Assembly (NCBI GenBank): GCA_024278345.1
Contig: JAJRTK010000120.1
Coordinates: forward strand, 1 to 35,333
Reading direction: 5' to 3'
From: a bacterium
Lineage (GTDB): Bacteria > CSSED10-310 > JAJRTK01
Length of the DNA: 35,333 bases
Shown here: positions 41 through 21,206 of the stretch, piece after piece
Layout of the letters: each line of letters begins with the position of its first letter
Numbering within the stretch: the first letter of the stretch is position 1
Notes under the pieces: generated by a model
What the model saw: only the letters and a program-made list of their open reading frames with translations
What the model was told of the DNA's origin: nothing
Databases searched by the model: none
Program-made: the position numbers and the translations under genes

Positions 41-544
41 TCAATAAGTGTCTTGTTCCTCAAAGGGTAGAATACGCCTAAGCATCGGAAGCAAGAGGCA
101 GGCAAAGATCAAGTTCGACACGAGTTCCGGGAGAACCACACCGGAAAAGTGGAACAAGGCTCCCACTTCGGTGGCCCTGGAGCCAAATGCCTTCCCCATC
201 CAATAGACGACAAACCCATTCAGCAATGTCCCCAGTCCCACGACGACCAATTGCACCGATAAGTTGCTGACGATGAAAGAGTGACGTACATTCGCTCCAA
301 AATAGCCCAACAACGATTTGGCGAAGGAGCTGACCCCGGAAAGAGCCATGGAAAAGGCATCCTGCCCCAGCCCCGCGATGAAACCGGTGATGATAGCCTT
401 TTCCGGTTTCGACGCCAGGGCGACGAAAACCGTCAAGATCAGCAAGAGATCGGGACGAGCCAACGGCAACGACAAGAGCGGGAGCAGGCTCGTCTGAAGC
501 AAGGACAAGAGAAACAACATGGCTCCGATGCGAAATCCAGTCAT
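41..544 (-). CDS. mreD: rod shape-determining protein MreD
   Basis: Small integral membrane protein of the elongasome, which with MreC links cytoplasmic MreB filaments to peptidoglycan synthases. The 167-residue product is mostly hydrophobic: it opens with a membrane segment (FRIGAMLFLLSLLQTSLLP) and has several more, matching the usual 160-180 residue MreD. Identification rests on size, hydrophobicity and position; MreD is poorly conserved. Its ATG overlaps the mreC stop by 4 bases (541-544), so translation is probably coupled. About 40 bases remain downstream before the window edge; in related genomes a PBP2 gene (mrdA) often follows, but no part of it can be identified here. Confidence 0.88.
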   Translation of the reverse strand: MTGFRIGAMLFLLSLLQTSLLPLLSLPLARPDLLLILTVFVALASKPEKAIITGFIAGLGQDAFSMALSGVSSFAKSLLGYFGANVRHSFIVSNLSVQLVVVGLGTLLNGFVVYWMGKAFGSRATEVGALFHFSGVVLPELVSNLIFACLLLPMLRRILPFEEQDTY

Positions 545-1434
545 GGTGAGATCCCGTCACCCGTTGCCGGTTTCCGCAAAGCGGCTGGATCGGAAGCCTC
601 TGCTTCTCGCTCATCCTCTGGCGAAAGAAGAGAATGCTCCGCGGCGGCGAAGATGAGCACTTCCTCTACCTGCCGAAGCACGACGCTCGGCTCCACGAAC
701 ACCGTCTGGAATAGCCCGGACTCTTCGGGCAAGACCTCTATCACGTAACCGATGAGCAAACCTTTATGGTAGATCCCACCGATTCCCGAGGCAATGACCG
801 CATCGCCAGGGAAGACTTTCGCGGCCTTCGCCACGTAGCGCAATTCCAGCGGTCGATCTGCGCCACGGCCACTGACGATCCCGGGAACGCGGCTCTCCTG
901 CAGGAGTCCTGCCACATTGGAGAGCTCATCTTCCACAAGCTGAACCCGGCAGGAATAGCGCATCACACGGAGAACTCGGCCCACGAGACCATCGGCCGTC
1001 GTGACACACATATCGACCCGAACACCATCGGCGCTTCCGCGATCACAAAGGATGGAGCGAGCCATGTTCGAGGGGTCCCACCCGATGACCCGTGCCGCGA
1101 TGGCCGGACGTTCCAGGTAGCGCTGGAACCCAAGGAGGTCACGCAACCGATCCCTCTCGTGCCGGGCTTCTTGGAGTTCGATGACCTGGCGCCGATAGTC
1201 GCTGATCTGTCTTTCGGCGGCTTCAACCCGCTCCTGAACGCCCACGAGATAGAGGTAGCGATACCAGGTGCCGGCAAAGAAGCGGACCATGCCGACCGCG
1301 CCCTGTTGGAAAGGTCTCGCCAGTCTCTGGAGCCCCGCCGACAACAGGTTTTCCGGCGAACTCATCAGCAACAACGAGAGGCCCAAACAGAACACCAGCG
1401 TCGTTAAGGGGCCGTATCGATGGTACAGTTGCAC
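541..1434 (-). CDS. mreC: rod shape-determining protein MreC
   Basis: Bitopic inner-membrane/periplasmic elongasome protein that bridges MreB/MreD and the penicillin-binding proteins. The 297-residue product has a short cytoplasmic N-terminus, one membrane segment at about residues 9-26 (TTLVFCLGLSLLLMSS), a coiled-coil at about 65-105 (RVEAAERQISDYRRQVIEL and on) and the MreC beta-domain with typical segments (ARVIGWDPSNMARSILCDRG, GDAVIASGIGGIYHKGLLIG). The start is a GTG with a GGGGAG ribosome site 4 bases upstream. It sits 88 bp after mreB and overlaps mreD by ATGA. The last 35 residues are charged and probably disordered. Confidence 0.95.
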   Translation of the reverse strand: MQLYHRYGPLTTLVFCLGLSLLLMSSPENLLSAGLQRLARPFQQGAVGMVRFFAGTWYRYLYLVGVQERVEAAERQISDYRRQVIELQEARHERDRLRDLLGFQRYLERPAIAARVIGWDPSNMARSILCDRGSADGVRVDMCVTTADGLVGRVLRVMRYSCRVQLVEDELSNVAGLLQESRVPGIVSGRGADRPLELRYVAKAAKVFPGDAVIASGIGGIYHKGLLIGYVIEVLPEESGLFQTVFVEPSVVLRQVEEVLIFAAAEHSLLSPEDEREAEASDPAALRKPATGDGISP

Positions 1435-1522
1435 GTCACTCCCCAGATCCCGGTATGCCTCTCCCTCGCCAGTCTCTGCGGGAAAAGCCAGTGGATTCGC
1501 TTCTTACGGGCGATCCGGCAAC

Positions 1523-2560
<1,038 letters not shown>

Positions 2561-2566
2561 TCATTG

Positions 2567-2595
2567 CTAGAGTTTGGAAAAATTGGGTTTGTCAA
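2567..2595 (-). promoter_or_regulatory. candidate sigma-70 promoter for mreBCD
   Basis: On the minus strand a perfect TTGACA (2595-2590) is followed after 17 bases by CTCTAG (2572-2567), only about 20 bases upstream of the mreB GTG. The -35 box is consensus but the -10 box is poor, so this is tentative. The rest of the 184-bp gap shows no clear terminator for the upstream two-component operon. Confidence 0.3.
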
Positions 2596-2735
2596 GAACT
2601 ACGGACGATCAGTGCGGATGCACTATGTACTTTATCGAACTCCTTGTCCAACGGGCAAACGCCACTCCACTTTGTTTACTTTTTTTTGCTTCCCCCCGAA
2701 AGTGATTGCCAAGTCCGTTTCCCGCCGGAGGAGAG

Positions 2736-4175
2736 TCACGAATGGAGATCTCCGCGGTTCTGTTTCAACTCGGAACGTTGGTTCCTCAATCCATATTCCT
2801 TCATTTTCATCTGCAAGCTCTTGCGTGAGATTCCGAGAGCTTCGGCGGCCCGTGTGACGTTCCCGCCTGTCTCCCCCAAAGCCTGCTGGATCACGTGGCG
2901 CTCGACGCGCCTCGTATGCTCCTTGACAACTTGCTTCAAAGATGAGGGAGTCCGCCCCTCCGCTCCTAACGGTGAACTCTCACCAAGCGAAGCCGGGGAA
3001 ACTCCGTGCCTGGAAAAGGTGGGAAGGTTCTCCACGTCCAAGATGTGGCCATCCGCCAAGAGAATCGAACGCTCCACTACGTTCTCCAGCTCGCGAATAT
3101 TACCGGGCCAGCGGTAGGCACGCAGCTTCGCCATGGCTCCCGGTGTGATCCCCTCAACACTCCGGCCAAGGCGTTTATTGAAACGCTCAATGAAATATGG
3201 GACCAGCTCTTCGATATCTTCGGAGCGCTCGCGAAGCGGCGGCAGATGGATGGGAACGACGTTGAGGCGGTAAAAGAGGTCCTGGCGAAAGCGCCCGGCG
3301 GCCACCTCGGCCTCGAGGTCCTTGTTCGTCGCGGCGATGAGCCGGACATCGAATTTGATGCTCTTGAGGCCGCCGACTCTTTCGAATTCGCGCTCCTGAA
3401 GACATCGGAGCAACTTGACCTGGAGCTCCTTGGGGGTTTCGCCGATCTCGTCCAAGAAGAGCGTCCCGCTATCAGCCAACTCGAAGCGACCGGGCTTGAG
3501 GGCAACGGCCCCGGTGAACGCGCCCTTTTCGTGCCCAAACAGCTCGGATTCCAAAAGAGTTTCTGGAATCGCGGCAACATTAATGCGGATGAAGGGTTTA
3601 TCCGCCCGAGCCGAATGGCGGTGGATGGCCTGAGCCACCAGCTCCTTGCCCGTGCCTGACTCCCCCGTCACAAGGACAGTGGTGGGGGAGTCGGCGACTT
3701 TGTCCAAAATCCGGCAAAGCTCGCGAATCGCCGGCGACGACCCGATGAAATTGTAGCGGTCGGCGCCCTCGGGAGTCAGCTTGGCGTCGAGCTGTCGCTT
3801 CTCATAGGTACGTAGAGCATTCCCCACCTTGATCTTCAGCTCGGCGGCATCAAACGGCTTCGTGATAAAGTCGAAAGCCCCGTTTTTCATTGCTTCCACG
3901 GCTGTTTCAATGGTCCCGTGGGCCGTGATGAGAATGAGTTCGCAGGCCATGCCGCGCCTTCTGAGCTCTGATAGCAGCTCCAGCCCATCCATTTGCGGCA
4001 TCCGCAAATCCGAGACCACGAGCTGAAAGGAGCCCTTCCCGAGCAGCTCCAAAGCCTGGCGCCCGTTACCAGCTGTCTCCACTTTATAGCCGTCCCTGGA
4101 AAGCATCGCCGAAAGAATCCGCCGCATGTTGGCTTCGTCCTCAACGATCAGAATCCTGCTGGCTTTCGAGCTCAT
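2736..4175 (-). CDS. sigma-54-dependent response regulator (NtrC family)
   Basis: Transcriptional activator that, when phosphorylated, remodels sigma-54 RNA polymerase. From ATG 4175 (479 residues) the order is: receiver domain 6-120 with phospho-acceptor Asp56 (VVSDLRMPQMDG) and Lys106; AAA+ domain about 143-370 with Walker A GESGTGKE (171-178), the sigma-54 contact loop GAFTGA (218-223) and Walker B LFLDE (239-243); C-terminal Fis-type helix-turn-helix about 425-465 (GGNVTRAAEALGISRKSL). An ATG 17 codons upstream exists, but the chosen start has AAGGA 9 bases ahead and begins directly at the receiver fold. It follows the sensor kinase gene by 94 bp on the same strand, so the two are probably cognate. 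Target genes are not evident. Confidence 0.93.
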   Translation of the reverse strand: MSSKASRILIVEDEANMRRILSAMLSRDGYKVETAGNGRQALELLGKGSFQLVVSDLRMPQMDGLELLSELRRRGMACELILITAHGTIETAVEAMKNGAFDFITKPFDAAELKIKVGNALRTYEKRQLDAKLTPEGADRYNFIGSSPAIRELCRILDKVADSPTTVLVTGESGTGKELVAQAIHRHSARADKPFIRINVAAIPETLLESELFGHEKGAFTGAVALKPGRFELADSGTLFLDEIGETPKELQVKLLRCLQEREFERVGGLKSIKFDVRLIAATNKDLEAEVAAGRFRQDLFYRLNVVPIHLPPLRERSEDIEELVPYFIERFNKRLGRSVEGITPGAMAKLRAYRWPGNIRELENVVERSILLADGHILDVENLPTFSRHGVSPASLGESSPLGAEGRTPSSLKQVVKEHTRRVERHVIQQALGETGGNVTRAAEALGISRKSLQMKMKEYGLRNQRSELKQNRGDLHS

Positions 4176-8802: not shown

Positions 8803-8828
8803 AGGCCGGGCGGGGCCTCTGTTTTTTT
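8803..8828 (+). terminator. intrinsic terminator after the J/TPR gene
   Basis: A short stem AGGCC (8803-8807) / GGCCT (8814-8818) with loop GGGCGG is followed by CTG and seven T's (8822-8828). It ends the upstream unit about 85 bp after its stop and lies directly ahead of the next promoter. Confidence 0.5.
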
Positions 8829-8829
8829 C

Positions 8830-8858
8830 TTGCCAAAGTTTCCCCATTGGCCTATATT
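8830..8858 (+). promoter_or_regulatory. candidate sigma-70 promoter for peptide and giant gene
   Basis: TTGCCA (8830-8835) and TATATT (8853-8858) are separated by exactly 17 bases, immediately after the T-tract of the preceding terminator. The predicted start near 8865 gives a leader of roughly 75 bases before the peptide ATG at 8939. This is the best promoter-like match I found in the window. Confidence 0.55.
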
Positions 8859-8938
8859 AGATACGTTGGCGTTGTTGTACTTAACCTTTGGCGTTGGGAA
8901 GAGTGCAATGCCCCGTGCGCCCCAACTTTGCAGAGAAG

Positions 8939-9133
8939 ATGAACAAAATGCAACCATCGAAGCCCGACGCTCCCGCGCACCGCGCTCAATCCGTGTCCAA
9001 GCCGGCAAAGCGGCCCTACGAGGCTCCCGCGATTCTTTCGAGGGAGTTTCTTGAAGTTGTGGCGGCTGTCTGTACTCCGCCTTCGAAGGCGACTGTGGCT
9101 GAATGTCCATTCGGGAATCCCCTCGGTTCTTGA
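8939..9133 (+). CDS. candidate RiPP precursor peptide (64 aa)
   Basis: Small ORF starting MNKMQPSKPD, with a purine-rich AGAGAAG just ahead of the ATG. After a basic, Pro/Ala/Ser-rich leader (1-24), residues 24-40 read KRPYEAPAILSREFLEV. This has the [KR]-[KR]-P-Y-x-x-P-x-[ILV] pattern that I know from small peptides encoded beside PqqD-like and radical SAM proteins. The tail has Cys45 and Cys56 and ends ECPFGNPLGS. It lies downstream of a good promoter and 144 bp ahead of the giant secreted-protein gene. The only peptide-modifying enzymes in the window are at 18873-21143, convergent. The similarity is from pattern recognition; the pairing with those enzymes is inferred. It could instead be an unrelated small protein. 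Confidence 0.55.
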   Translation: MNKMQPSKPDAPAHRAQSVSKPAKRPYEAPAILSREFLEVVAAVCTPPSKATVAECPFGNPLGS

Positions 9134-9277: not shown

Positions 9278-12200
9278 ATGAGTTTCAGAAAAAACGGATC
9301 GGGCTTGTTCCGCAGGCGGGCGCTTCTTGCGTGGGGGATCGCGTGGCTAGTTCCCTTGATCTTGGTGTCTGGAGCACGGGCGGATTACGTGGGCTCGTTG
9401 ACGAACCGGATCTTTTTGGACCCGGATTCGCTGCCGGTGTTATTGGACGGGATGCAGGCGGGAGACGAGATCTCCTACATTCTGGAAACGACACCGGCGG
9501 ACACGGGGAGCGTCAACGGGCATGCGGCGTGGATGACGCTCTACGTTCCGGCGGGGGTGGAGGTCATCGGGGCGGAGGTCGTCAAGCCCATTGGTGGGGG
9601 CCGGTATAGCACGGTACAGGCCGAGGACACCGATGTTGCTTACAATGGTTGGGGGATCCGGGGTGCCAGGGGTTTCGCGGCCCCGTTGGCGGAGGGCTAT
9701 CTGAACGAGGTGCAGCAGGATACAGGCATTTTCTTCAGCACTGATCCCAGGACGCAAATCGTCGTAGGCGGTTTGGGTCCGTTGTCACCGACGGGGATCA
9801 ACACGAACCAGCTTGCGGGCAACCTTTGGGACTTTGACCAGACGGTGGCTTTTGGCGAGGGAACGGCTTTATCGGGTAACCAGGGGAAGGGGAGCACGCC
9901 GCTGGTAACAATGGACGGGGGCGCGACCTGGGTGGGAACGGGTTCCATGGTGGCGGGGCCGGACACTTACTACACGAATGATTACGACCCCGATTGCGAT
10001 CTTGGGTCGGCAACTTTCTCTAACGACGTGGCCTGTGTCGGTCCTTGGCAGAGGCTGGACTACCCGAATTCGAAGCTTGGTGGTAGCGGTCCGATCCAGC
10101 CCGCAACAGCCACTGGATTGATTGAGTATACAGCCGTTCCGGCTACGAGCAATTGGGGGACGCTCTCTCCGAGCAATCCGCTCCCACCAGCGGTCAATGC
10201 CGTTCGATACGTTCATGGAAAGCGGCGGTTGGGAGAACTGGAGACGGGTCGAATCACCTTGAGGATTCTTGATCCGGTGGCCTTTTCCGCGACATTCCAA
10301 GACCACACCTTCTGCCTGGAAAGCACGGGCGGCGACCAGAGCGATCCGTCGGCGAAAGACAATCCGTGGCGTTATTTCGAGCCTCAGCAGGGGTGCGACT
10401 ACCTGAATCCCCAGTCGGTTTTCATCAAGCAGATTCTTTATGTGAACGGCGTCCCGGCCAGTGGGAGCTCGCTCTCCATAGGCGACGTCATCAGTTACGA
10501 GTTGACGTTCGCGAATATTTCCCCGTCGAACCCGCCTTTTTCGGATATGACCAACGTCATCTTCACGGATTCACCCGCCGATCCCGCGGTCATGACGCTC
10601 TTGGAGCCGGGAGATCCGAATTGTTTTTACGGGAGTTACGACGGTGATCTACCGGGGCCGGCCCCTACCTATGTGGGCGGGTCCGCATCCGGGGGGACAG
10701 CGACCTGGAACGCTATTGGGAGTTTCTCGTCTTCGTCGGTGGTTCGGCTGCACCTGTGCGGCAAGGTGACTGGCGGGGCCTTGGGCGCCCGCATCGACAA
10801 TAATGGGCAGGTCGATTACGTGTTCAACGGCCAGCCCTTCACGGAGACGTCGGCGGCCGGGGGAACCATTAGTACGGCCATCAGCGGCAGTGTTTGGGGT
10901 GACGCCAATGGAAACGGGGTGCTGAATCTAGGGGAAGCCGGTCTTGGAAACGTGGCCGTGGACCTTTATCTGGACAATGACGGCGATGGCGCTCTGTCGC
11001 CCGGGGATACACTGGCCTCTTCAACGCTGACGACCGTGGATGGCTTCTACGAATTCGCCGGGATTGCCGCGGGGAATTACGTGGTGGTGGAAAGCGATCC
11101 CACGGACTGGTTCTCCACCCGGGACCAAGATACAGCCTTTGGAGCATGTGGGGGAGGAAACGGGTGCAACCAGATTTCCACAACGGTGGCCGCTGGTGGA
11201 GCGAGCACGGGCAACGATTTCTATGATGCTCCTTATAACATCGTCACTGGAACGGTTTTTGGAGATCAGGACCAGGACGCCCTTTTGAACTTGGGGAATG
11301 GAGATTTCGGTCAGGGTGGAGTGACAGTCAGGATTTACGAAGACACGAACGGGAATGGGCAAGTCGATCCGGGAACCGATCTGCTTTTTGACACGACGAC
11401 CACGGCAGCGGATGGCAGTTACAAGTTCGGGGTCTACGACAGCCGTTACGTGATGGATATTGACACGGCGACGTTGCCGGCGGGATCGAACTTGACGACG
11501 GACAACGTGGAGACGGCGGTTTTCGCCGGATTCGGAGGCACGGATCCGGGCAACGATTTCGGGTTCGCGGCTCCGCCGGTTCTTTCGGTGGCCAAGAGTT
11601 CCAGCGCAGCGGGCACGACCGTGGCACCCGGGGGCACGATCTCCTACACGATCCGGCCTTCCTACCCCAGTTCCCAGTCCCTGTTGACGAACGTCCAGGT
11701 GACGGACAGCGTGCCGGCGAACAGCACGTTCGTCAGCGCGGGGCCGGCGGGATTCACCCGTTCTGGTGGAACCTTCTACTGGGATCTGGGAAGCAACGCG
11801 CCCAAGACGGCCGGCGTCGTCCTTGGCGTCACGGGCAATTGCACCTTCCTGCCCAGCCAGGACACCTTCATCGACGAGAACAACCCCAACAGCAATTATG
11901 GAGGCGACAACAAGCTGAAGATCGAGGCGCGGGCCGGGAGACGGCAGCGGCCGATGATCCAGTGGTCGCTCGCCACTTGCATCCCGGCGGGAGCAATTGT
12001 CACGTCGGCCGACATGCGGTTCTACGTGGACAAGAAATTCACGAATCACACGGTGGACATCTACCGCATCACGGCTGCGTGGCTCGATACAACCGCGACG
12101 TGGAACAATACGGGTGGAGGGAACTACAACGCGACGAGTTGGGGCTCGTTCATCCCCACGACCCAGAAGACGTACGAAGTCGTGCCCGTGACGAACCTGG

Positions 12201-15200
12201 TCCAGGGATGGTTGGCGGGGCTTTTCCCCAACCATGGAGTCATCCTGGTTCCGACGGGGCCCGACGGAGTCACGGAGATCGGTTCCGTGGAGAAGGGAGG
12301 AAAAGAGCCGCTGCTGGTGGTGAACTATTCTCTTCCTGGGACCAACACGCAGCTCGACGCCGAACCCTACCTGGTACTCCACAACGATACCATCAACGTG
12401 AAGATGAACGTCACGGTGGATGCCGCCGACACGGTAACCCCTTCGGCTCTGAGTGTCGCGAGTGTCAACGGAGCCGGTGCGGCGAGCTGTGGAACTCCGA
12501 CACCGCCTTCCCGGGTCCTGGCCGCGGGAGGAACGGGTGATTTCCTTTGGACCTGCACCGCGGTGGCGGGAGGCTTGGGCGGAAGCGTCACCTTTTCCAC
12601 CAGTATTACCGGCACGAATCCCAGCTTGAGCTATGCCCCGGTAACCTCGAACAGCGTCCTTGTGACGCCGGATCTGACCATGACGGTGACGGCGCCGGAC
12701 CCTATCGACCGCAACGTCAGCGTCATCGACAATACGGCCCTGCTGTCCAGCACCGGCGAGTTTTGGGCGCGATCGACAGTGCGGGATGTTTTGAGCTTCG
12801 GAGGCACCATCGGTTCACTGGTTTGGCTGGACACGGATCGCGATGGCCTTCCGGACGTAGGGGAACCGGGTCTCTCCAACGTTGAAGTAGTGCTGTACGA
12901 CGTTGGCCCGGATGGTTTGCCCGGGACAGGGGATGACATCCAGGTGGCGATGACGACGACGGCGCTCGATGGATCGTACATCTTCGAGTATCTCAGTCCG
13001 GGCACTTATTACGTAGATGTGACGGATGCGACGGTTCCGGCCGGTCTCTCCGTGGCTCCGGGCAACGTTGATCCCAGCGGCACGGTGACGATCTCGACCA
13101 CCGAGACGGACATCGGTGTCAACTTCGGGTATCTGCAAAGCGATCCGACCCTTGGTGTACTGGGTAGTGGAGTGTGGAGCGATGCCAATGGAGACGGCCT
13201 GTGGGGTCCGGGGGAACGGGGCATTGGCGGAGTCACGGTCGATCTGGTGACAGCCGGGCCTGATGGAGTTTTTGGGACCGGCGATGACGTGGTTGCCGCG
13301 ACGACGACATCGGCGGGCGATGGCAGCTACCTTTTCATGGGGGTTCCCGCCGGAGAGTATCAGGTCGATGTGACGGACACGGGAAACCTGCTGACGGGGT
13401 ACAGCTTGACGCAGGGTCCCCAGAGCAATCCCGATCCGACGTACACAATTTTCATGGAAACGGGCCAATCGTATCTCAATGCTGATTTTGGATATCAAAA
13501 CCCGGCACTCCACACGATTTCGGATCGACTTTGGTTTGACTCGAATGGTGACGGAACCTTGGATGCCGGTGAATCCGGTGTCCCTGGAGTGCAGGTGGAT
13601 CTCCTGGATGCATCGGGAAAGGTGATTGCGACGACGATGACGGCCGCGGATGGTACCTTTGCCTTCCCGGGTGTGCCCGATGGGAGCTACAGCCTTCGGT
13701 TGCCGTCGGACAACGGTGGGAGCGTCACAAAGCTGGACGGGACGACAACGCCGGCTATTAACAGGCTTCAAAACATCACGGTAGCGGGAGCGGATGTCTC
13801 TGGAACCAGTTTTGGTTTCCACCGTCCCGGAATCATCGGAGACACGATTTTCTCCGACAACAACGGGAATGGAACGTTGGATCCGGGAGAATTGGGCCTC
13901 CCCAACATCACAGTGCAATTGTGGGCTGACTCGGACGGCAACGGAGTTTTCGATTCAACGCAAGACACTCTGGTGGGGAGCACGACCACCGATGTGGCGG
14001 GAGAATATCGTTTTTCCGGCCTCTTGGATGGCACCTACTTCGTCAGTGTCGATAGCGGCCAAGTCAACCTCACGGGTTATGGCCCAACGACGACGGACCA
14101 ACAGACGGGGGCCAATGCCGCGGGAGTCCAAATCGATGCGCCGTTGACCAGCCTCGCTTCGGATTTCCTTGACGCCGATTTCGGGTTCCGGAACGCGGGA
14201 CTGCCGGACGTTTCCGGCAACGTCTTTGGAGACCTGGATGTTGATGGCATCGACGATGGTGCTTCCGAGCCGGGAATCGGCGGGGTCACCGTCGAGCTCC
14301 TCGACAGCGGTGGCAACGTTCTTGCCACCACGACGGCCGACGCCAACGGAGATTACTCCTTCCCGGACGTTCCCGCCGGGAACTACAGGGTTCACGTCAC
14401 GGACCAGAGCAAGATTCTGAGTGGGTACACCCTGACGCGTTCCCTGGACTTCATCGACGTGACGGTGGCAGCAACGAATATCACCAAGGTAGACTTTGGT
14501 TACGTGCGGGATCCGGCCACTGGAGGCATGGGGGACCGGGTCTGGCTTGACGCCGACAACGACGGCATCCAGGATGCGGGAGAACAGGGGATTTCCGGAA
14601 TCACGGTCATCTTGTATGACCCCGGCCCGGACGGAGTGCCCGGTGGCGGGGACGACGTGGCCTTGTCGTCGATGACCACGAACTCCAGCGGGGACTTCTG
14701 GTTCCCCAATCTCCCCGAAGGCAAGTACTACGTGGACGTGGATGGCGCGACTCTTCCCGCTGGACTCTCCCCCACGGCGGGGACGACGGACCCATCGCCG
14801 GTAATCCGCTTGAGTGCCGGCGAACAGGCGAACGGTGTGGATTTCGGGTATTCTTCCGGAGCTCTTCTTGGCACCATCGGGGATACGGTTTTTTACGACG
14901 CCAATGGTGATGGAGTGCAAAACCTTGGTGAAGCGGGGATCGGTGGCGTCACCCTCGAGCTTCAGGATGCGGTTTGCCAACCGGGAGTGGACTGCCCGAC
15001 GACGGTGACCAAGCCCGATGGCTCCTATCTCTTCACGGGGGTCACCCCTCGGGCCGGAGGATATGGGGTCCAGCTCGACGTCACGACCTTGCCCGTGGGC
15101 TACAATCCGGCGCCGACGAACGGACCGCCCTTCCGCTCGACGTGGGTGGGTCCCGGCGGCGCGGCACTGGATGTCGATTTCGGGATCACCGGCGGCTCCG

Positions 15201-18200
15201 TAGGTTCCATTGGAGACTCCGTCTTTTTTGACCATAACGGGGACGGCCTCTTCGGTGCCGGGGACCAAGGCATTGAGGGGATCACCCTAAACCTCGTGGA
15301 CATTTCAAGCGGCGCCATCATCGCCACGACAACCACCGATTCCGTGGGCGCTTACGACTTTACGGGGATTCCTGCCGGTACTTACCAAGTGGAGATCCTT
15401 GATCCCACAGGTGTCCTGGCAGCCTTGAATCTGTCCGGCGGAGCCACGAACCCCACCAACCCAATCCCTCTTCTTGCGGGTCAGGATTACAATAACGCTG
15501 ATTTCCCCTACGCATCATCTGGAGGATTGGGGATCATCGGAAACTTGATCTGGCACGATTTGAACCACAATGGCGTGGCGATTCCCTTGGAAAGCGGGAT
15601 GGAGCTGATCTCCGTGGAGCTCTGGTTTGACGCGAACGCGAACCAATCCATCAACCCTGGCACGGACAACCTGGTGCGCCTGGCCTGGACGGATCGCAAC
15701 GGGAATTACGAGTTCACGGCTCTGAACCCCGGAAGCTACCTGGTCAATGTTACGGATCTCCACGGGGTATTGGGAGGTTTCGTGAAGACGGTGAACGGGA
15801 CCACCGATCTGGACAACAACAGCCAGGTGCTGCCCTATCCAGCAGTGATCAATGGTTTCACGCCGTACATCGCGGCGCCGACCAGTGTGGTGGCGGACTT
15901 CGGCTACTGGGCGCCCTTGGATCTGACGTTGAGCGGTTCGATATTTTGGGACACGAACTCCAATGCCAGCCTCGACGGAGGCGGAGGGGAACCTCTCATC
16001 AACAATACGACGCTTGTTCTGTATCGCGATCTTGACGGCGACGGAGCCATTAGCCGTGGCGACCCGGTCATCGGGCAGCAGCAGGCGAGCGCTGGCACCT
16101 ATTCCTTTACGAATTTGCCGGCTGGAGACTATATTGTTGCCGCGGAGACAACAGGGACATCAGCTCTTGGGGCCCTGCAAACGACGCAGACGGCTTCGGG
16201 AAGCGTGCAGCCCGTAACTTTGGCCGCAACCGATTCCACGGGCAACGATTTTGGTTTCGTTTTCGCGGCGACCAGGGTTCTCATCGCTGATTTCCGAGCT
16301 TCCCCCGGTCCTGGCGGCAATCTTCGAATCGAGTGGACAACAGTTTCCGAAGCCAATACGGCAGGTTTCGAGCTTTATCGCTGGATTCCGGGCAAAAATG
16401 ATTTCCTACGAGTGACTTCGAGTCTTGTTCCGGCTCCATTTGGTTCCTCACAAGGAAGTCGGTACCACGTTCTGGATCGCGTGGCGCCCAATGGGGGCGA
16501 GAATCTTCGCTACATGCTGGTGGAGCGCGAAACCACCGGCGGCGAAAACTATTACGGGCCTTTCACGGTGAGCCGAAGATTGGGAGTCATTTCCTTCCGC
16601 CGCCCCGCGGGAGAGGAAGAAAGGTCCGGAGCCACGAGCATTCCCCCCGATACAACGGTCTTGCGCCGCAATGCCGAGCACCGGGAACTGGCCATGAGCT
16701 ATCGCTCCGAGATGATAAACTCAGTCTCCAAGCAGATCAAAGTGACGATCCGCGAGGAGGAAGGCATTTATCGAGTCAGCTCCGACGAGCTTTCCGCACT
16801 CTTTGGCGCCAACATCGAGACTGTACGCCAATGGATCGCCCAGGGGCGCCTGGCGGTGGAAAACGGCGGAAAACCGGTGGCCTGGCTGGCGGCGGATTCC
16901 AACGACGGGATTCTTTTCTTTGGCGAAAAGATCGGAAGCATCTATTCCAGGGACAACGTTTACTGGATTCGCCCGGGCCAAGGGGAACGGATGCAGCGGA
17001 TTGTTGGTCCGCTGGTTCCACCCAACGGTGGAAACGGGGGATTCGTCGAACATCTGCCCTTCGAGGAAGATTTTTTCCCAGTGACGATTACCGGGCCGGA
17101 TCCGGAATCGGATTACTGGCACTGGGCCGGTTTTATCGCGGGGCACGGGAGACTGGGGAGCCGCTCCTTTTCCTTGAACGTGCCTGATGTCTCAAAGCGT
17201 GCCCGGACGGCCAAGCTCACGGTCCGTTTCCGCGGTGCGACGTCGAGTCCGGTGGCGAAGGATCACCATGCGGAGATCTGGTTCAATGGGAGTAGGATCG
17301 GAGAAACATACTTCGCCGATACGGAAGAACATGAGGTGACGATTGGATTCTCCCCCACACTGCTTCAATCTGGTTCCAATACCGTGACCGTGGTGGCGTT
17401 GAAGGATACCGGAGCCCCCAGCAGTCAGTTCTTTTTGGACTCCTTCGATCTGGAGTACACTCGGCTCTACCGAGCGGAGAGCGACGTTCTCCACGCCAAT
17501 ACGGGCACGGACCCCATCACCACGATTCAGGGCTTCACGGAGCCGGACATCCTGGTTTTCGCCTACGACAAGGCGGAGCCTCGCCAGCCTCTCGTGGTTG
17601 CCAGCAAGTCGATCCGCAGGGAGCGCGGTGGAACTTACGAGGTCACCTTCGCATCACCGGGACGGCAGATGGAGATCGTCGCCTTGACGAGATCTAGGAT
17701 TCGGGCACCTCAGGCTGTGTTTCCCGATTCACCTTCGTCCCTCAAGGGGGATAGTGGGACGGATTACCCGATAATTGGAGCCGATTACCTGGTGATCACG
17801 ACGGGCGAACTCTTGGAGGCGGCCAACGCCCTTGCCGAGTACCGTCAAGGCCAAGGGCTGGAATCGATGGTGGTGGATCTCGAAGACATCATGGACGAAT
17901 TCAATGACGGGATCTTCAATCCCCACGCGGTCCAGGATTTCTTGAAGTATGCCACGGAAAACTGGGAGATCCCGCCCCGGTACGTCGTCCTTGCGGGTGA
18001 CGGACATTTGGATTACCGGGAAATCTGGAATCGGGGCGGCAACTTGATCCCGCCCATCATGGTCTCGACGCCCTACGGCCTTTTCGCATCGGACAACTCA
18101 TTCGCGGATTTCGATGGGGACGCGGTCCCCGACGTGGCCATCGGCCGGCTGCCGGTCGTGACGAGCGGGGAGTTGAGCCTGATGATCGACAAGATCACCG

Positions 18201-18817
18201 GTTACGAGGCCTCGCGGGGAGACTGGAGTTCGGAGGCCTTGTTGATTGCTGACAACCCGGACAACGGAGGCAACTTCAACCTTCACTCGGACGCATTTGC
18301 GGGCGAAGTGGCGAATAAACTCGATCTACTGCGCATCCGGCTTTCGGAGATGACCTCCTCCATGGCCCGCGACGCCCTTCTGGACAAGATCCAGTCGGGT
18401 GTGGGTCTTATTCACTACGTGGGGCATGGCGGCATGGATCGGCTGGCGTCGGAGGCTCTGCTCAAGACGAGCGATGTAGACAGTCTGTACAACGGAGATG
18501 CCCTGACTATTCTGTTGAGCATGACCTGCAATGTCTCTCGATTCGAGCTTCCCGGTTTCCTCTCTCTGGGTGAAGCCATGGTTCTCCGAGACGGTGGAGG
18601 CGCCATCGCCGTGTGGGCGCCGACGGGTCTCTCTCTGGACTTCGAGGGAGCCAAACTGAGCCGCGCCTTTGGGAGGGCCTTGAACACCAAGGAAACCGGC
18701 AGGCTCGGAGACGCTGTCGTCAGAGCCTTGGTGGATTTCTCCCAGGAAAAGAACTTCCGGTTCCCGCTGGAAGTGTATATCCTTCTGGGAGATCCTGCCC
18801 TGAATCTGAAACGCTGA
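9278..18817 (+). CDS. giant secreted SdrD-B-repeat protein with DNRLRE domain and C25 (gingipain-like) peptidase
   Basis: 3179 residues. ATG 9278 was chosen because GGGAAG lies 7 bases upstream and a signal peptide follows (RRRALLAWGIAWLVPLILVSGARA). Order: N-terminal beta-rich region (30-530); two SdrD-B-like domains (about 534-765); a DUF11-like stretch (768-850); a DNRLRE-type domain (about 855-1017, SQDTFIDENNPNSNYGGDN ... RPMIQWSL); a second DUF11-like region (1031-1170); ten more SdrD-B-like domains (1178-2329) with Ca-binding loops such as DANGDG; an Fn3-like segment (2333-2433, TVSEANTAGFELYR); then an extended region leading to a C25 caspase-like peptidase (about 2830-3179). The likely catalytic pair is His3050 (YVGHGG) and Cys3084 (SMTCN), 34 residues apart, close to the gingipain spacing. 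There is no PEP-CTERM, LPXTG or type IX sorting signal that I recognise, so the mode of surface attachment is unclear. Probably a cell-surface or secreted protease/adhesin. Confidence 0.85.
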   Translation: MSFRKNGSGLFRRRALLAWGIAWLVPLILVSGARADYVGSLTNRIFLDPDSLPVLLDGMQAGDEISYILETTPADTGSVNGHAAWMTLYVPAGVEVIGAEVVKPIGGGRYSTVQAEDTDVAYNGWGIRGARGFAAPLAEGYLNEVQQDTGIFFSTDPRTQIVVGGLGPLSPTGINTNQLAGNLWDFDQTVAFGEGTALSGNQGKGSTPLVTMDGGATWVGTGSMVAGPDTYYTNDYDPDCDLGSATFSNDVACVGPWQRLDYPNSKLGGSGPIQPATATGLIEYTAVPATSNWGTLSPSNPLPPAVNAVRYVHGKRRLGELETGRITLRILDPVAFSATFQDHTFCLESTGGDQSDPSAKDNPWRYFEPQQGCDYLNPQSVFIKQILYVNGVPASGSSLSIGDVISYELTFANISPSNPPFSDMTNVIFTDSPADPAVMTLLEPGDPNCFYGSYDGDLPGPAPTYVGGSASGGTATWNAIGSFSSSSVVRLHLCGKVTGGALGARIDNNGQVDYVFNGQPFTETSAAGGTISTAISGSVWGDANGNGVLNLGEAGLGNVAVDLYLDNDGDGALSPGDTLASSTLTTVDGFYEFAGIAAGNYVVVESDPTDWFSTRDQDTAFGACGGGNGCNQISTTVAAGGASTGNDFYDAPYNIVTGTVFGDQDQDALLNLGNGDFGQGGVTVRIYEDTNGNGQVDPGTDLLFDTTTTAADGSYKFGVYDSRYVMDIDTATLPAGSNLTTDNVETAVFAGFGGTDPGNDFGFAAPPVLSVAKSSSAAGTTVAPGGTISYTIRPSYPSSQSLLTNVQVTDSVPANSTFVSAGPAGFTRSGGTFYWDLGSNAPKTAGVVLGVTGNCTFLPSQDTFIDENNPNSNYGGDNKLKIEARAGRRQRPMIQWSLATCIPAGAIVTSADMRFYVDKKFTNHTVDIYRITAAWLDTTATWNNTGGGNYNATSWGSFIPTTQKTYEVVPVTNLVQGWLAGLFPNHGVILVPTGPDGVTEIGSVEKGGKEPLLVVNYSLPGTNTQLDAEPYLVLHNDTINVKMNVTVDAADTVTPSALSVASVNGAGAASCGTPTPPSRVLAAGGTGDFLWTCTAVAGGLGGSVTFSTSITGTNPSLSYAPVTSNSVLVTPDLTMTVTAPDPIDRNVSVIDNTALLSSTGEFWARSTVRDVLSFGGTIGSLVWLDTDRDGLPDVGEPGLSNVEVVLYDVGPDGLPGTGDDIQVAMTTTALDGSYIFEYLSPGTYYVDVTDATVPAGLSVAPGNVDPSGTVTISTTETDIGVNFGYLQSDPTLGVLGSGVWSDANGDGLWGPGERGIGGVTVDLVTAGPDGVFGTGDDVVAATTTSAGDGSYLFMGVPAGEYQVDVTDTGNLLTGYSLTQGPQSNPDPTYTIFMETGQSYLNADFGYQNPALHTISDRLWFDSNGDGTLDAGESGVPGVQVDLLDASGKVIATTMTAADGTFAFPGVPDGSYSLRLPSDNGGSVTKLDGTTTPAINRLQNITVAGADVSGTSFGFHRPGIIGDTIFSDNNGNGTLDPGELGLPNITVQLWADSDGNGVFDSTQDTLVGSTTTDVAGEYRFSGLLDGTYFVSVDSGQVNLTGYGPTTTDQQTGANAAGVQIDAPLTSLASDFLDADFGFRNAGLPDVSGNVFGDLDVDGIDDGASEPGIGGVTVELLDSGGNVLATTTADANGDYSFPDVPAGNYRVHVTDQSKILSGYTLTRSLDFIDVTVAATNITKVDFGYVRDPATGGMGDRVWLDADNDGIQDAGEQGISGITVILYDPGPDGVPGGGDDVALSSMTTNSSGDFWFPNLPEGKYYVDVDGATLPAGLSPTAGTTDPSPVIRLSAGEQANGVDFGYSSGALLGTIGDTVFYDANGDGVQNLGEAGIGGVTLELQDAVCQPGVDCPTTVTKPDGSYLFTGVTPRAGGYGVQLDVTTLPVGYNPAPTNGPPFRSTWVGPGGAALDVDFGITGGSVGSIGDSVFFDHNGDGLFGAGDQGIEGITLNLVDISSGAIIATTTTDSVGAYDFTGIPAGTYQVEILDPTGVLAALNLSGGATNPTNPIPLLAGQDYNNADFPYASSGGLGIIGNLIWHDLNHNGVAIPLESGMELISVELWFDANANQSINPGTDNLVRLAWTDRNGNYEFTALNPGSYLVNVTDLHGVLGGFVKTVNGTTDLDNNSQVLPYPAVINGFTPYIAAPTSVVADFGYWAPLDLTLSGSIFWDTNSNASLDGGGGEPLINNTTLVLYRDLDGDGAISRGDPVIGQQQASAGTYSFTNLPAGDYIVAAETTGTSALGALQTTQTASGSVQPVTLAATDSTGNDFGFVFAATRVLIADFRASPGPGGNLRIEWTTVSEANTAGFELYRWIPGKNDFLRVTSSLVPAPFGSSQGSRYHVLDRVAPNGGENLRYMLVERETTGGENYYGPFTVSRRLGVISFRRPAGEEERSGATSIPPDTTVLRRNAEHRELAMSYRSEMINSVSKQIKVTIREEEGIYRVSSDELSALFGANIETVRQWIAQGRLAVENGGKPVAWLAADSNDGILFFGEKIGSIYSRDNVYWIRPGQGERMQRIVGPLVPPNGGNGGFVEHLPFEEDFFPVTITGPDPESDYWHWAGFIAGHGRLGSRSFSLNVPDVSKRARTAKLTVRFRGATSSPVAKDHHAEIWFNGSRIGETYFADTEEHEVTIGFSPTLLQSGSNTVTVVALKDTGAPSSQFFLDSFDLEYTRLYRAESDVLHANTGTDPITTIQGFTEPDILVFAYDKAEPRQPLVVASKSIRRERGGTYEVTFASPGRQMEIVALTRSRIRAPQAVFPDSPSSLKGDSGTDYPIIGADYLVITTGELLEAANALAEYRQGQGLESMVVDLEDIMDEFNDGIFNPHAVQDFLKYATENWEIPPRYVVLAGDGHLDYREIWNRGGNLIPPIMVSTPYGLFASDNSFADFDGDAVPDVAIGRLPVVTSGELSLMIDKITGYEASRGDWSSEALLIADNPDNGGNFNLHSDAFAGEVANKLDLLRIRLSEMTSSMARDALLDKIQSGVGLIHYVGHGGMDRLASEALLKTSDVDSLYNGDALTILLSMTCNVSRFELPGFLSLGEAMVLRDGGGAIAVWAPTGLSLDFEGAKLSRAFGRALNTKETGRLGDAVVRALVDFSQEKNFRFPLEVYILLGDPALNLKR
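10877..16263 (+). repeat. coding repeats: about 12 SdrD-B-like domains
   Basis: Units of roughly 100-130 residues each begin with a pattern like IGDxVWxDxNGDGxxDxGE, run through GIxGVTVxL and xTTTxxxGxYxFxGxPxGxY, and end DFGY/F. Starts recognised by sequence: ISGSVWGDANGNG, VTGTVFGDQDQDA, IGSLVWLDTDRDG, LGSGVWSDANGDG, ISDRLWFDSNGDG, IGDTIFSDNNGNG, VSGNVFGDLDVDG, MGDRVWLDADNDG, IGDTVFYDANGDG, IGDSVFFDHNGDG, IGNLIWHDLNHNG and LSGSIFWDTNSNA. The DUF11/DNRLRE block separates units 2 and 3. DNA copies have diverged; this is an old protein-level array. Confidence 0.8.
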
Positions 18818-18872: not shown

Positions 18873-19925
18873 TCAGGCTGTTTCGGGATCCAAGAGCTGC
18901 GGGTAGAGGGCGAGGGGGTCTCCCGTCAATTCCTCGGCCAGCCCGAGGCAGAAGGTGCGCGGTCGTTCTTTTCGAGGCATCCCGGAGACCAGGCGGTGGG
19001 CCTGTTCGTTGATTCTCCGAATTTCAGGCAACTGGGGCGAATGAAACCATATCTGGCGAATGGTCTGCTGGTGGAGGTTTCCCACGGGTCGCCGCCACTG
19101 GACGCAGGGATAGACGTTGCCATAGGGATCGATGGTCAAGGTGGTGGCGCCGGTTCCGCAGTGCTTCTTGGGGAACAGGGGAGTCTTGGAAGCCGTGTAG
19201 GAGTCTGGGGAAGCCGTCGTTGTTTTGCCTGAGACCGGCTCAAGGGTGCAAGCGGTTCGAACTTGGGCTTCTTGGAGAAGGCGCAGGCGGTTCCCAGCGG
19301 CTGGCGAAGGAGCGATGGACAAGGGGGTCCGATCTCCGTCATCCCGTGGAGTCACCACGCTATCGACGATGAGAAGGGCGTCCAGACTTTGAGCGAGTTC
19401 GAACATGGATTCGATTTCGGCTTCGTTCCAGCGGGTCATGGTGGTCTGAAGCCGAAAGCGCAAGCCCAATGCTCGAAGCCCTTGAAGATTCGAAAGCAAC
19501 CGGTCAAAACTTCCTACGACCTGGGTTTGGCGGTCGTGGGTCTTCGCGGTGGCCCCGTGGAGGCTGATTTCGATGACGTAGGGATCGAGTTCCCGTTGGA
19601 TGCGCTTGGCGACATTCTCCCCGAGAGCGTGGCCGTTGCTTTTGAGGCGAAGGACGAATCCCAGCTCGCGGGCTTTTCTGCCCACGGGCCAGAAACAGGG
19701 GCTCGCCAGAGGCTCGCCTCCGGAAAGGGTCAGTTCGAGGACTTGGAGTTCGGCCAGTTCCTCCAGGAGACGCTCATAGTCCTGCCGTTGGAGGGGTTTT
19801 CCCGTCAGTCCGAGATCGTTGTAGCAGAAAAAGCAATCGAGATTGCAGCGGTAGGTCAATTCCAGCAACACCGAGAGCAGGCAATTCTTGGCCCGCCCTT
19901 CTTCCACGAGCTTGAAGTAGGTCAT
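18873..19925 (-). CDS. radical SAM enzyme with reduced SPASM-type C-terminus (peptide modification)
   Basis: 350 residues. The radical SAM [4Fe-4S] motif CX3CX2C is at Cys27/31/34 (TYRCNLDCFFCYND), followed by the SGGEPL motif (68-73) and the ISLHGATAKTHD segment typical of PqqE-like enzymes. The C-terminal part has Cys256-x12-Gly269-x4-Cys274 (CGTGATTLTIDPYGNVYPC), the first half of a SPASM motif, but downstream only Cys326 remains where SPASM proteins usually have four to five cysteines. It may therefore bind one auxiliary cluster. The ATG overlaps the stop of the PqqD-like gene (ATGA, 19922-19925). The expected reaction is radical modification of a PqqD-bound ribosomal peptide; the chemistry cannot be told from sequence. 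Confidence 0.88.
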   Translation of the reverse strand: MTYFKLVEEGRAKNCLLSVLLELTYRCNLDCFFCYNDLGLTGKPLQRQDYERLLEELAELQVLELTLSGGEPLASPCFWPVGRKARELGFVLRLKSNGHALGENVAKRIQRELDPYVIEISLHGATAKTHDRQTQVVGSFDRLLSNLQGLRALGLRFRLQTTMTRWNEAEIESMFELAQSLDALLIVDSVVTPRDDGDRTPLSIAPSPAAGNRLRLLQEAQVRTACTLEPVSGKTTTASPDSYTASKTPLFPKKHCGTGATTLTIDPYGNVYPCVQWRRPVGNLHQQTIRQIWFHSPQLPEIRRINEQAHRLVSGMPRKERPRTFCLGLAEELTGDPLALYPQLLDPETA

Positions 19926-20197
19926 GCAGTCTCTCCGGGAGCTGGTTCCAGAACTCCGAGCTCCAAGAGCTCCTCGACGAAACGGTTCGTATCTTCCTTC
20001 AAGATTCTCTTCTCAACGTCGAACTCGCCCGTCAACAAGGAAACGATTTCGGGCACGGAACGTCCCTCCACAAGGAGCTGGAGAATCCGAGCACCCACGC
20101 CGTTGATCCCAAGAGCCTCACCGGCTGCCTGGCGGATGAGGACTCCCTGCTGGAGAATGCGGCGAAATCGAACGTCTTTAGCAAGAACCAGTTTCAT
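19922..20197 (-). CDS. PqqD-like peptide chaperone (RRE)
   Basis: 91 residues from ATG 20197 (MKLVLAKDVRFRRILQQGVL), preferred over an upstream TTG because a GGAGAGGA ribosome site precedes it. PqqD features are the early beta-hairpin, the GVLIRQAAGEALGINGVGARIL segment and the LLTGEFDVEKRILKEDTNRFVEELLELGVL helices. PqqD-family proteins bind the leader of a ribosomal peptide and deliver it to a radical SAM partner. It overlaps the upstream kinase-like gene by 20 bases and the downstream radical SAM gene by 4, so the three are translated as one unit. Confidence 0.85.
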   Translation of the reverse strand: MKLVLAKDVRFRRILQQGVLIRQAAGEALGINGVGARILQLLVEGRSVPEIVSLLTGEFDVEKRILKEDTNRFVEELLELGVLEPAPGETA

Positions 20198-21143
20198 TCC
20201 ATCCTCTCCGGTCTCTTTCCTCAACAAGCTCTACCAGGCCCTGCAGCTGGCCATCGAGGGAAAAATCCAAGACATAGCCCGGAACCTCTTCTACCAGTGC
20301 CAAAAGGTTCTCCTCAAGGCGATGAATGCGGAACGGATCGCAATTGACAAAGGGGGCGCAAGCAACCAGCAGAGCAAAAGTACTACCCGTTTCCATGATG
20401 GCTACGGCATCGGCCTCCGACTGGCGGAGCTTGCAAAGAAACTCCAGAGGCCTGGGGGGCAAAATCTCCAGCCTTTCCCTGCCAAAATCCCCCGCAAAGG
20501 GGACCTGTTGAACAGAGACTCTCTTCCCCGTCGGTACGATGGCGTTGAGGTCGTCGCTATAGATTTCCCATCCTCGATGAGCAGCGAGACGGCTGAGAGT
20601 ACTCTTGCCAGCCCCCGAATGGCCCGGGAACAACCAGCTACGGTAACCATCGCTCAGGGCAGCGCTGTGAATGAGGACTCCGCCATTTTCCAACAACGCG
20701 TAGGCGCTGGCAACGCGGAGGAGATTCGCGAATCCCAAGATGAAATCGCTCTTCGTTTCACTGCAAGTCCAGAGGCCCACGCGAAGCCGGGGATAGAGAG
20801 AAAGAAAGCCCATGAGCTGGTAGCCGGCCATCTTCACATGCTCGGAGTGGTATTGGAAGTCGAATTGGACGTCCCAGCCGGCCAGGTCGAAGTGGTGAAA
20901 GTCCTCTCTTGCCGAGCGGAAGACTTTGAACTCGATGGCTTTTTTGTCTGTTTCAATATCTGGTGCAACGACCAGGTCGCCGAAACGCTCTTCGATGGCC
21001 TCTTGGAAGCCGGGGGTCAGACCGGTCATGGAATAGGTCGCTCCCAGAAAGTCCAGGCTCACCTGAGCGGTTCCCCAGTGCTCCCCGGCCAACCGAGCGG
21101 GAAAGAGATCCGGGACAGAAACGAATCGATCTGCAAAGGCCAT
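20178..21143 (-). CDS. HprK-like kinase of peptide-modification cassette
   Basis: 321 residues from ATG 21143; TTG/GTG starts up to 21161 are also possible and no strong ribosome site decides. Residues about 150-210 carry the HPr kinase/phosphorylase core: VLIHSAAL, Walker A GHSGAGKST (174-182) and the acidic SDDLN (196-200). The N-terminal 140 residues (beta-rich) do not match the HprK N-domain that I know. HprK-like proteins without a phosphotransferase context occur next to PqqD and radical SAM genes in proposed peptide cassettes such as the SynChlorMet type; their substrate is unknown. First gene of the hprK-like/pqqD-like/radical SAM unit. Confidence 0.78.
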   Translation of the reverse strand: MAFADRFVSVPDLFPARLAGEHWGTAQVSLDFLGATYSMTGLTPGFQEAIEERFGDLVVAPDIETDKKAIEFKVFRSAREDFHHFDLAGWDVQFDFQYHSEHVKMAGYQLMGFLSLYPRLRVGLWTCSETKSDFILGFANLLRVASAYALLENGGVLIHSAALSDGYRSWLFPGHSGAGKSTLSRLAAHRGWEIYSDDLNAIVPTGKRVSVQQVPFAGDFGRERLEILPPRPLEFLCKLRQSEADAVAIMETGSTFALLVACAPFVNCDPFRIHRLEENLLALVEEVPGYVLDFSLDGQLQGLVELVEERDRRGWNETGSC

Positions 21144-21206
21144 GGACGCCGACACCGGCAAGGGTTATGGGTTCGGCCACGGGGTCGTGGCAGGCAATGG
21201 GGTAAA

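Follow-up and report, generated by a model that had tools for sequence, protein, structure and literature searches.

The HprK-like kinases PadeK, ThcoK, SyanK, and PsmK phosphorylate the C-terminal serine of lasso precursors (PMC9266682). In lasso peptides and in linear polyphosphorylated peptides (LPPs), experiments define the motif [Y/W]xxPx[L/V/I/F/A] as RRE-binding and assign to Asn33 and Asp70 of LppB a role in leader binding (PMC13381572). LppK, a relative of the kinase described below, phosphorylates an internal serine, not a C-terminal one (PMC13381572).

The window (the whole stretch of DNA analyzed, 35,333 nucleotides) contains a 64-residue ORF that is very likely the precursor of a RiPP family absent from the libraries and papers searched, served by a radical SAM/PqqD/kinase cassette about 10 kb away. 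There is no biochemical evidence for any member of the family, and the modification of the core is inferred. The features are the following:

8803 to 8828, plus strand: terminator-like hairpin with a T-run, 5′ of the peptide gene (sequence match)
8830 to 8858, plus strand: promoter-like site TTGCCA-17-TATATT (consensus match only)
8939 to 9133, plus strand: gene of the proposed precursor peptide, 64 residues, ORF MNKMQPSKPDAPAHRAQSVSKPAKRPYEAPAILSREFLEVVAAVCTPPSKATVAECPFGNPLGS
9008 to 9034, plus strand: leader motif KRPYEAPAI, by peptide alignment the RRE-binding motif [Y/W]xxPx[I/L/V] (motif defined experimentally in PMC13381572)
9071 to 9130, plus strand: putative core C45-TPPSK50-ATVAE-C56-PFGNPLG-S64 (leader/core boundary inferred)
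9278 to 18817, plus strand: giant secreted protein of about 3179 residues, with a signal-peptide-like N-terminus, SdrD_B repeats, CBM96, and a C-terminal Peptidase_C25 domain with the His/Cys dyad
18873 to 19925, minus strand: radical SAM enzyme with CxxxCxxC and three further conserved Cys (C256, C274, C326)
19922 to 20227, minus strand: PqqD-like RiPP recognition element; the nearest solved chains by sequence are the lasso RREs TbiB1 and TfuB1
20178 to 21161, minus strand: HprK-like kinase of the PEPCK/HprK fold, with GHSGAGKS and SDD

A second in-frame ATG at 8948 is preceded by a better-spaced AGAGAAG, and a start at that position, giving 61 residues rather than 64, is equally possible. 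The promoter-like site matches the consensus at 10 of 12 positions, and its region holds two such sites vs. 0.3 ± 0.6 in shuffles. Searched genome-wide as a degenerate DNA pattern, the short motif gives 11 matches vs. 20 for the reversed control, which is not above chance; the case therefore rests on conservation. An earlier note, made from the sequence alone, had singled out the 64-residue ORF with KRPYEAPAI and two tail cysteines (C45 and C56), a promoter match following a terminator, and a cassette that lies past the 9.5-kb C25 gene, on the opposite strand. All of these hold, the promoter and the terminator hairpin as consensus matches. A lipoprotein reading, with an LAAC-like box before the Cys, was rejected: there is no hydrophobic segment, and position −1 is usually occupied by V, A, D, or I.

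The peptide family and its linkage to the cassette

Pairwise scoring of the single window peptide against related genomes gives mostly noise. The sole real match occurs in a genome of the same phylum (G001), where a 39-residue peptide, MKRKKYTKPVIVHTEHLEAVAAACPEPGKTAPPCNPIQS, directly follows S26-like, HprK-like, PqqD, and radical SAM genes. The aligned radical SAM enzymes of the window and of G001 (36% identical) were used as the query for a scan of 84,980 species genomes, which yields 38 clear radical SAM relatives. These loci were selected with the enzyme alone, and the peptide played no part. They belong mostly to Acidobacteriota (Thermoanaerobaculia, Holophagales), the others to Competibacteraceae, Sedimenticola, Thiocapsa, Lysobacterales, Myxococcales, and Desulfobulbus. 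The peptide is present in 33 of the 38, normally at most a few hundred bases from the radical SAM, PqqD, and HprK-like kinase genes. Among the five loci without it, four (L047, L050, L064, L074) are loci where the enzyme gene lies at the end of its contig or close to it; in the genomes of L047 and L074 the peptide lies on another contig, and no family member was found in those of L050, L064, and L068 (Thiocapsa).

With a profile of 12 peptides from radical SAM loci, the window excluded, the window ORF is matched at E = 3.8e-12, and a sharp gap separates the members (E < 1e-9) from the next match (0.04). A second profile, of 13 non-acidobacterial (proteobacterial and myxococcal) peptides, matches the window ORF at E = 2.2e-14 and gives matches in 21 loci from which no training peptide was taken. 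As a control, the best of 13,449 residue-shuffled ORFs reaches E = 0.16. In whole genomes of 2–10 Mb with the family, the number of members ranges from one to three (one in the window genome). Peptide matches occur in 48 of 297 sampled Acidobacteriota genomes. Linkage is also seen in the reverse direction: among 20 loci sampled from peptide matches in Acidobacteriota, 14 have the radical SAM gene and 16 have radical SAM and/or C25. Pfam, NCBIfam, and PHROGs contain no match for any family member, plasmid records none to the peptides, and a PDB profile search with the family returns noise only.

The consensus reads [KR][KR]x[YW]xxPxI..REPLEaxAxxC..PxK...C..GPxxS. Each of the 38 aligned peptides has [YW]xxP and a pair of Cys flanking a Lys. 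The motif Pro is strictly conserved (38/38), as are one Glu, one Ala, and the Ser at the C-terminus; the N-terminal extension is freely variable. One peptide, from a cluster without an adjacent kinase (L167), ends in Thr. A sister subtype in other Acidobacteriota has the consensus (by eye) MKKTYEKPAIVHTEKLEARAVTCAKADDAxCGAGPIQS. Over the last 45 codons of close peptide pairs, dN/dS is about 0.04–0.16 in most and well under 1 in nearly all (dN and dS of 0.021/0.208 for L043/L045, 0.041/0.474 for L063/L065, 0.078/1.053 for the L058 copies, and 0.181/1.122 for L051/L072); the pair L071/L152 (0.031/0.090) is too close to judge. The frame is therefore under purifying selection. The main idea of the earlier note, a precursor peptide tied to a distant PqqD/radical SAM cassette, is supported. 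It would have been refuted by a lack of conservation among relatives carrying the cassette or of selection on the frame, and it survived both: in 33 of the 38 loci a homologue neighbors PqqD and radical SAM, and in G001 one follows the cassette directly.

Other small peptides are present in some relatives. In L044 (13276–13350) and L045 (11132–11245), a tiny conserved peptide, MKKxYRKPSLRRLGLLRxxTRFSF, lies beside its own PqqD and HprK-like genes; its leader is lasso-like and the tail after it only a few residues long. In L079 (3016–3198), a second set of PqqD, HprK-like, and radical SAM genes, located at the opposite end of the locus, is accompanied by a divergent short peptide (KYEPPVVRRISLRAEEVLSVGCKLG...NQPGS). 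In L149 (9675–9851, contig C15 of G063), an orphan family peptide stands alone: for about 9 kb around it there is neither a radical SAM gene nor a kinase or C25 gene, and the cassette of that genome is located on another contig.

Cassette enzymes and a proposed maturation route

In the 34 peptide-bearing loci (window included), PqqD and HprK are each present in 33 and an S26-like gene in 22 (truncated contigs scored as missing); no S26-like peptidase occurs within the window. The tested genomes whose cluster has no adjacent HprK encode one elsewhere, in two cases 9–12 kb away. In the window itself, 9.7 kb and a change of strand separate the peptide from the enzymes, and co-expression is unproven.

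Full SPASM two-cluster maturases (PqqE/MftC type) have seven auxiliary Cys, including CX2CX5CX3C. Across 54 enzymes, the present radical SAM family shows CX3CX2C plus only three other conserved Cys, although Pfam SPASM scores, and it fails the seven-cysteine criterion. Because only three further Cys are conserved, we infer that the enzyme probably has one auxiliary cluster. The window enzyme is 58% identical to Acidobacteriota enzymes and about 36% to that of G001. Transfer from Acidobacteriota is not claimed, since a quick radical SAM tree has open forks and does not place the window firmly.

The window PqqD keeps the equivalents of both leader-contacting residues of LppB, N33 and D70. The W/Y of the peptide covaries with the PqqD Asp in the expected direction (36/37 vs. 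7/10, Fisher p = 0.026); with few independent lineages, this is supportive only. An AF2 model of the HprK-like kinase (pLDDT 87) matches PEPCK with Z 14.9 (rmsd 4.8 over 267) and HprK/P 1knx with a Foldseek E of 4e-5. By this model, the protein is predicted to meet the fold and P-loop criterion of RiPP kinases; phosphorylation of a Ser is inferred from the PadeK family.

The peptide family, its conservation, the purifying selection, the linkage, and the enzyme families are shown; the order of steps that follows is a proposal. By analogy with characterized relatives, and without binding data, PqqD (the RRE) would bind the leader through KRPYEAPAI and pass the peptide to the radical SAM enzyme. 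The latter would modify the short core spanning Cys45-Lys50-Cys56, probably through a cross-link or another C–H modification involving a Cys, the exact chemistry being a guess. The presence of an HprK-like kinase together with the invariant C-terminal Ser suggests C-terminal phosphorylation as in paeninodin, and, by inference from characterized relatives, we lean toward Ser64 as the residue that the kinase would phosphorylate. Against this, the C-terminal Ser is kept in clusters without an adjacent kinase and may be kept for another reason. A leader peptidase would then release the core; this inferred activity could be S26/signal-peptidase-like, as found in most relatives, and no such gene lies beside the window cassette. 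Finally, the secreted C25 protease inherited with the peptide would cooperate with the product or act on it, a role that is again a guess.

Elsewhere in the same genome, on contig C292 (L176), a second cassette at 331–3954 is much like the LPP gene set, with PqqD-like (331–633), S26-like (948–1502), NTP_transf_5-like (by eye; 1582–2691, minus strand), and HprK-like (3064–3954) genes; no precursor was identified. Its S26-like protein could conceivably serve both cassettes of the genome, which is speculation. Within the window, at 27448–31520 on the minus strand, a C45 autoproteolytic acyltransferase-like gene overlaps an MsbA-like ABC transporter with a cyclic-nucleotide-binding domain. The transporter is a possible exporter, 6–8 kb from the cassette, with the link unproven.

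The secreted C25 protease and alternative readings

The earlier note had viewed the C25 gene as a mere separator between peptide and cassette. C25 is instead a conserved partner of the peptide. It occurs in 26 of the 34 peptide-bearing loci (truncated contigs scored as missing) and abuts the peptide gene in most, nearly always on the same strand. The His/Cys dyad is intact in 50/50. Only one C25 gene and one family peptide occur in the window genome, separated by 145 bp, and in five further genomes (G061, G071, G077, G137, G197) the only C25 gene is on the peptide-bearing contig. The window arrangement is not unique: L150/L155 likewise have the peptide followed on the same strand by a giant SdrD_B/C25 protein. 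C25 together with radical SAM or PqqD is not described in the literature searched, which missed most subscription journals. In G001 (L042, 3594–7946), a 1450-residue secreted subtilase-like protein is found beside the cassette in place of C25.

The rival that survives best gives the peptide a main role as inhibitor, activator, or substrate of the C25 protease, with the maturation enzymes only tailoring it for that function. We consider it less likely than not. In its favor are the adjacency of peptide and C25, which persists in loci that lack radical SAM at a contig end, the single C25 gene on the peptide-bearing contig in the genomes just named, the intact dyad, and the Lys between the Cys in all 38 peptides, which is inferred to be a plausible site for a Lys/Arg-type protease. 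Against it, the G001 cassette adjoins a subtilase-like protease and none of the 14 C25 matches of that genome is on the cassette contig; orphan peptides without C25 also exist (L149). This reading concerns function, and RiPP maturation is not excluded by it.

In a second rival, the radical SAM enzyme would act on the C-terminal Ser, or this Ser would undergo some C-terminal tailoring other than phosphorylation, and the HprK-like protein would have another substrate. The mycofactocin maturase MftC is a relative of the radical SAM enzyme by NCBIfam score, and MftC acts on the C-terminus of its peptide; further, the Ser persists where HprK is not adjacent. We consider this reading unlikely, given the near-constant presence of HprK in the peptide-bearing loci, its occurrence elsewhere in the tested genomes without a local copy, and the action of characterized RiPP HprK-like kinases on a precursor Ser. 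Finally, a chance ORF, untranslated and with a coincidental motif, is all but excluded: the nine-residue motif alone is indeed not enriched in the genome, but the profile E-values, the residue conservation across several phyla, the low dN relative to dS, and the absence of any comparable shuffled-ORF match stand against it, and the homologues beside the same enzymes already refute it.

The preferred reading remains that of a RiPP precursor. Its family is in no library searched, yet it is found in Acidobacteriota, Gammaproteobacteria, Myxococcota, and Desulfobulbus; such tiny genes are easily missed, as in the window, with the peptide 10 kb from its enzymes. Radical SAM chemistry, RiPP kinases, and secreted proteases come together in one cassette, and exact residues can be offered for testing. 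The protease link is the surprising part. In a bolder reading, which is possible and no more, the radical-SAM-modified and C-terminally phosphorylated peptide would be dedicated to the giant secreted C25 (gingipain-type) protease, as its regulator, substrate, or covalent partner. If true, this would be a RiPP whose target is the co-inherited protease of its own producer.

Comparison with known systems

As a RiPP precursor, the window peptide satisfies two criteria: a short conserved ORF is linked to an RRE and a modifying enzyme, and an RRE-binding leader motif occurs with an RRE that has the leader-contact residues. A third, enzymatic modification of the core, is inferred. With the SynChlorMet (Scm) and GeoRSP cassettes of NCBIfam, the PqqD-like, HprK-like (ScmC), and radical SAM proteins give sub-threshold matches, all far below the curated cut-offs, and no family peptide matches any NCBIfam model. 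With lasso peptides of the paeninodin type (PadeK/ThcoK), the family shares the RRE, the [Y/W]xxP leader, the HprK-like kinase, and the conserved C-terminal Ser of the precursor. Unlike those clusters, it has a radical SAM enzyme, and neither a macrolactam cyclase nor a B2 protease was noticed next to the cassettes (macrolactam synthetase, C, and B2 protease were not recognized among the gene clusters common to the loci, with no dedicated search behind this).

The LPP systems (PMC13381572) share the PqqD-like RRE, the HprK-like kinase, and the YxxPx[VIL] leader, as well as an S26/SpI-like peptidase in most relatives and NTP_transf_5 in at least one (L051); no lasso cyclase was noticed. Of the LPP gene set (SpI, RRE, HprK, NTP transferase, MsbA-like transporter), the family loci show RRE and HprK (33/34), S26-like (22/34), NTP_transf_5 (confirmed in one locus), and an MsbA-like ABC transporter (a few). 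LPPs differ in being described from Bacillota, in a paper that mentions neither radical SAM nor C25 (PMC13381572), and in having the leader consensus YxxPxVLxHQxIxFETxxS with an internal Ser as the kinase target. That leader, with its Ser target near the core start, is not the one of the window family, where the consensus is YxxPxILxREPLEaxAxxC. What sets the window family apart from LPPs is its radical SAM enzyme, together with a C-terminal Ser and a conserved pair of Cys flanking a Lys.
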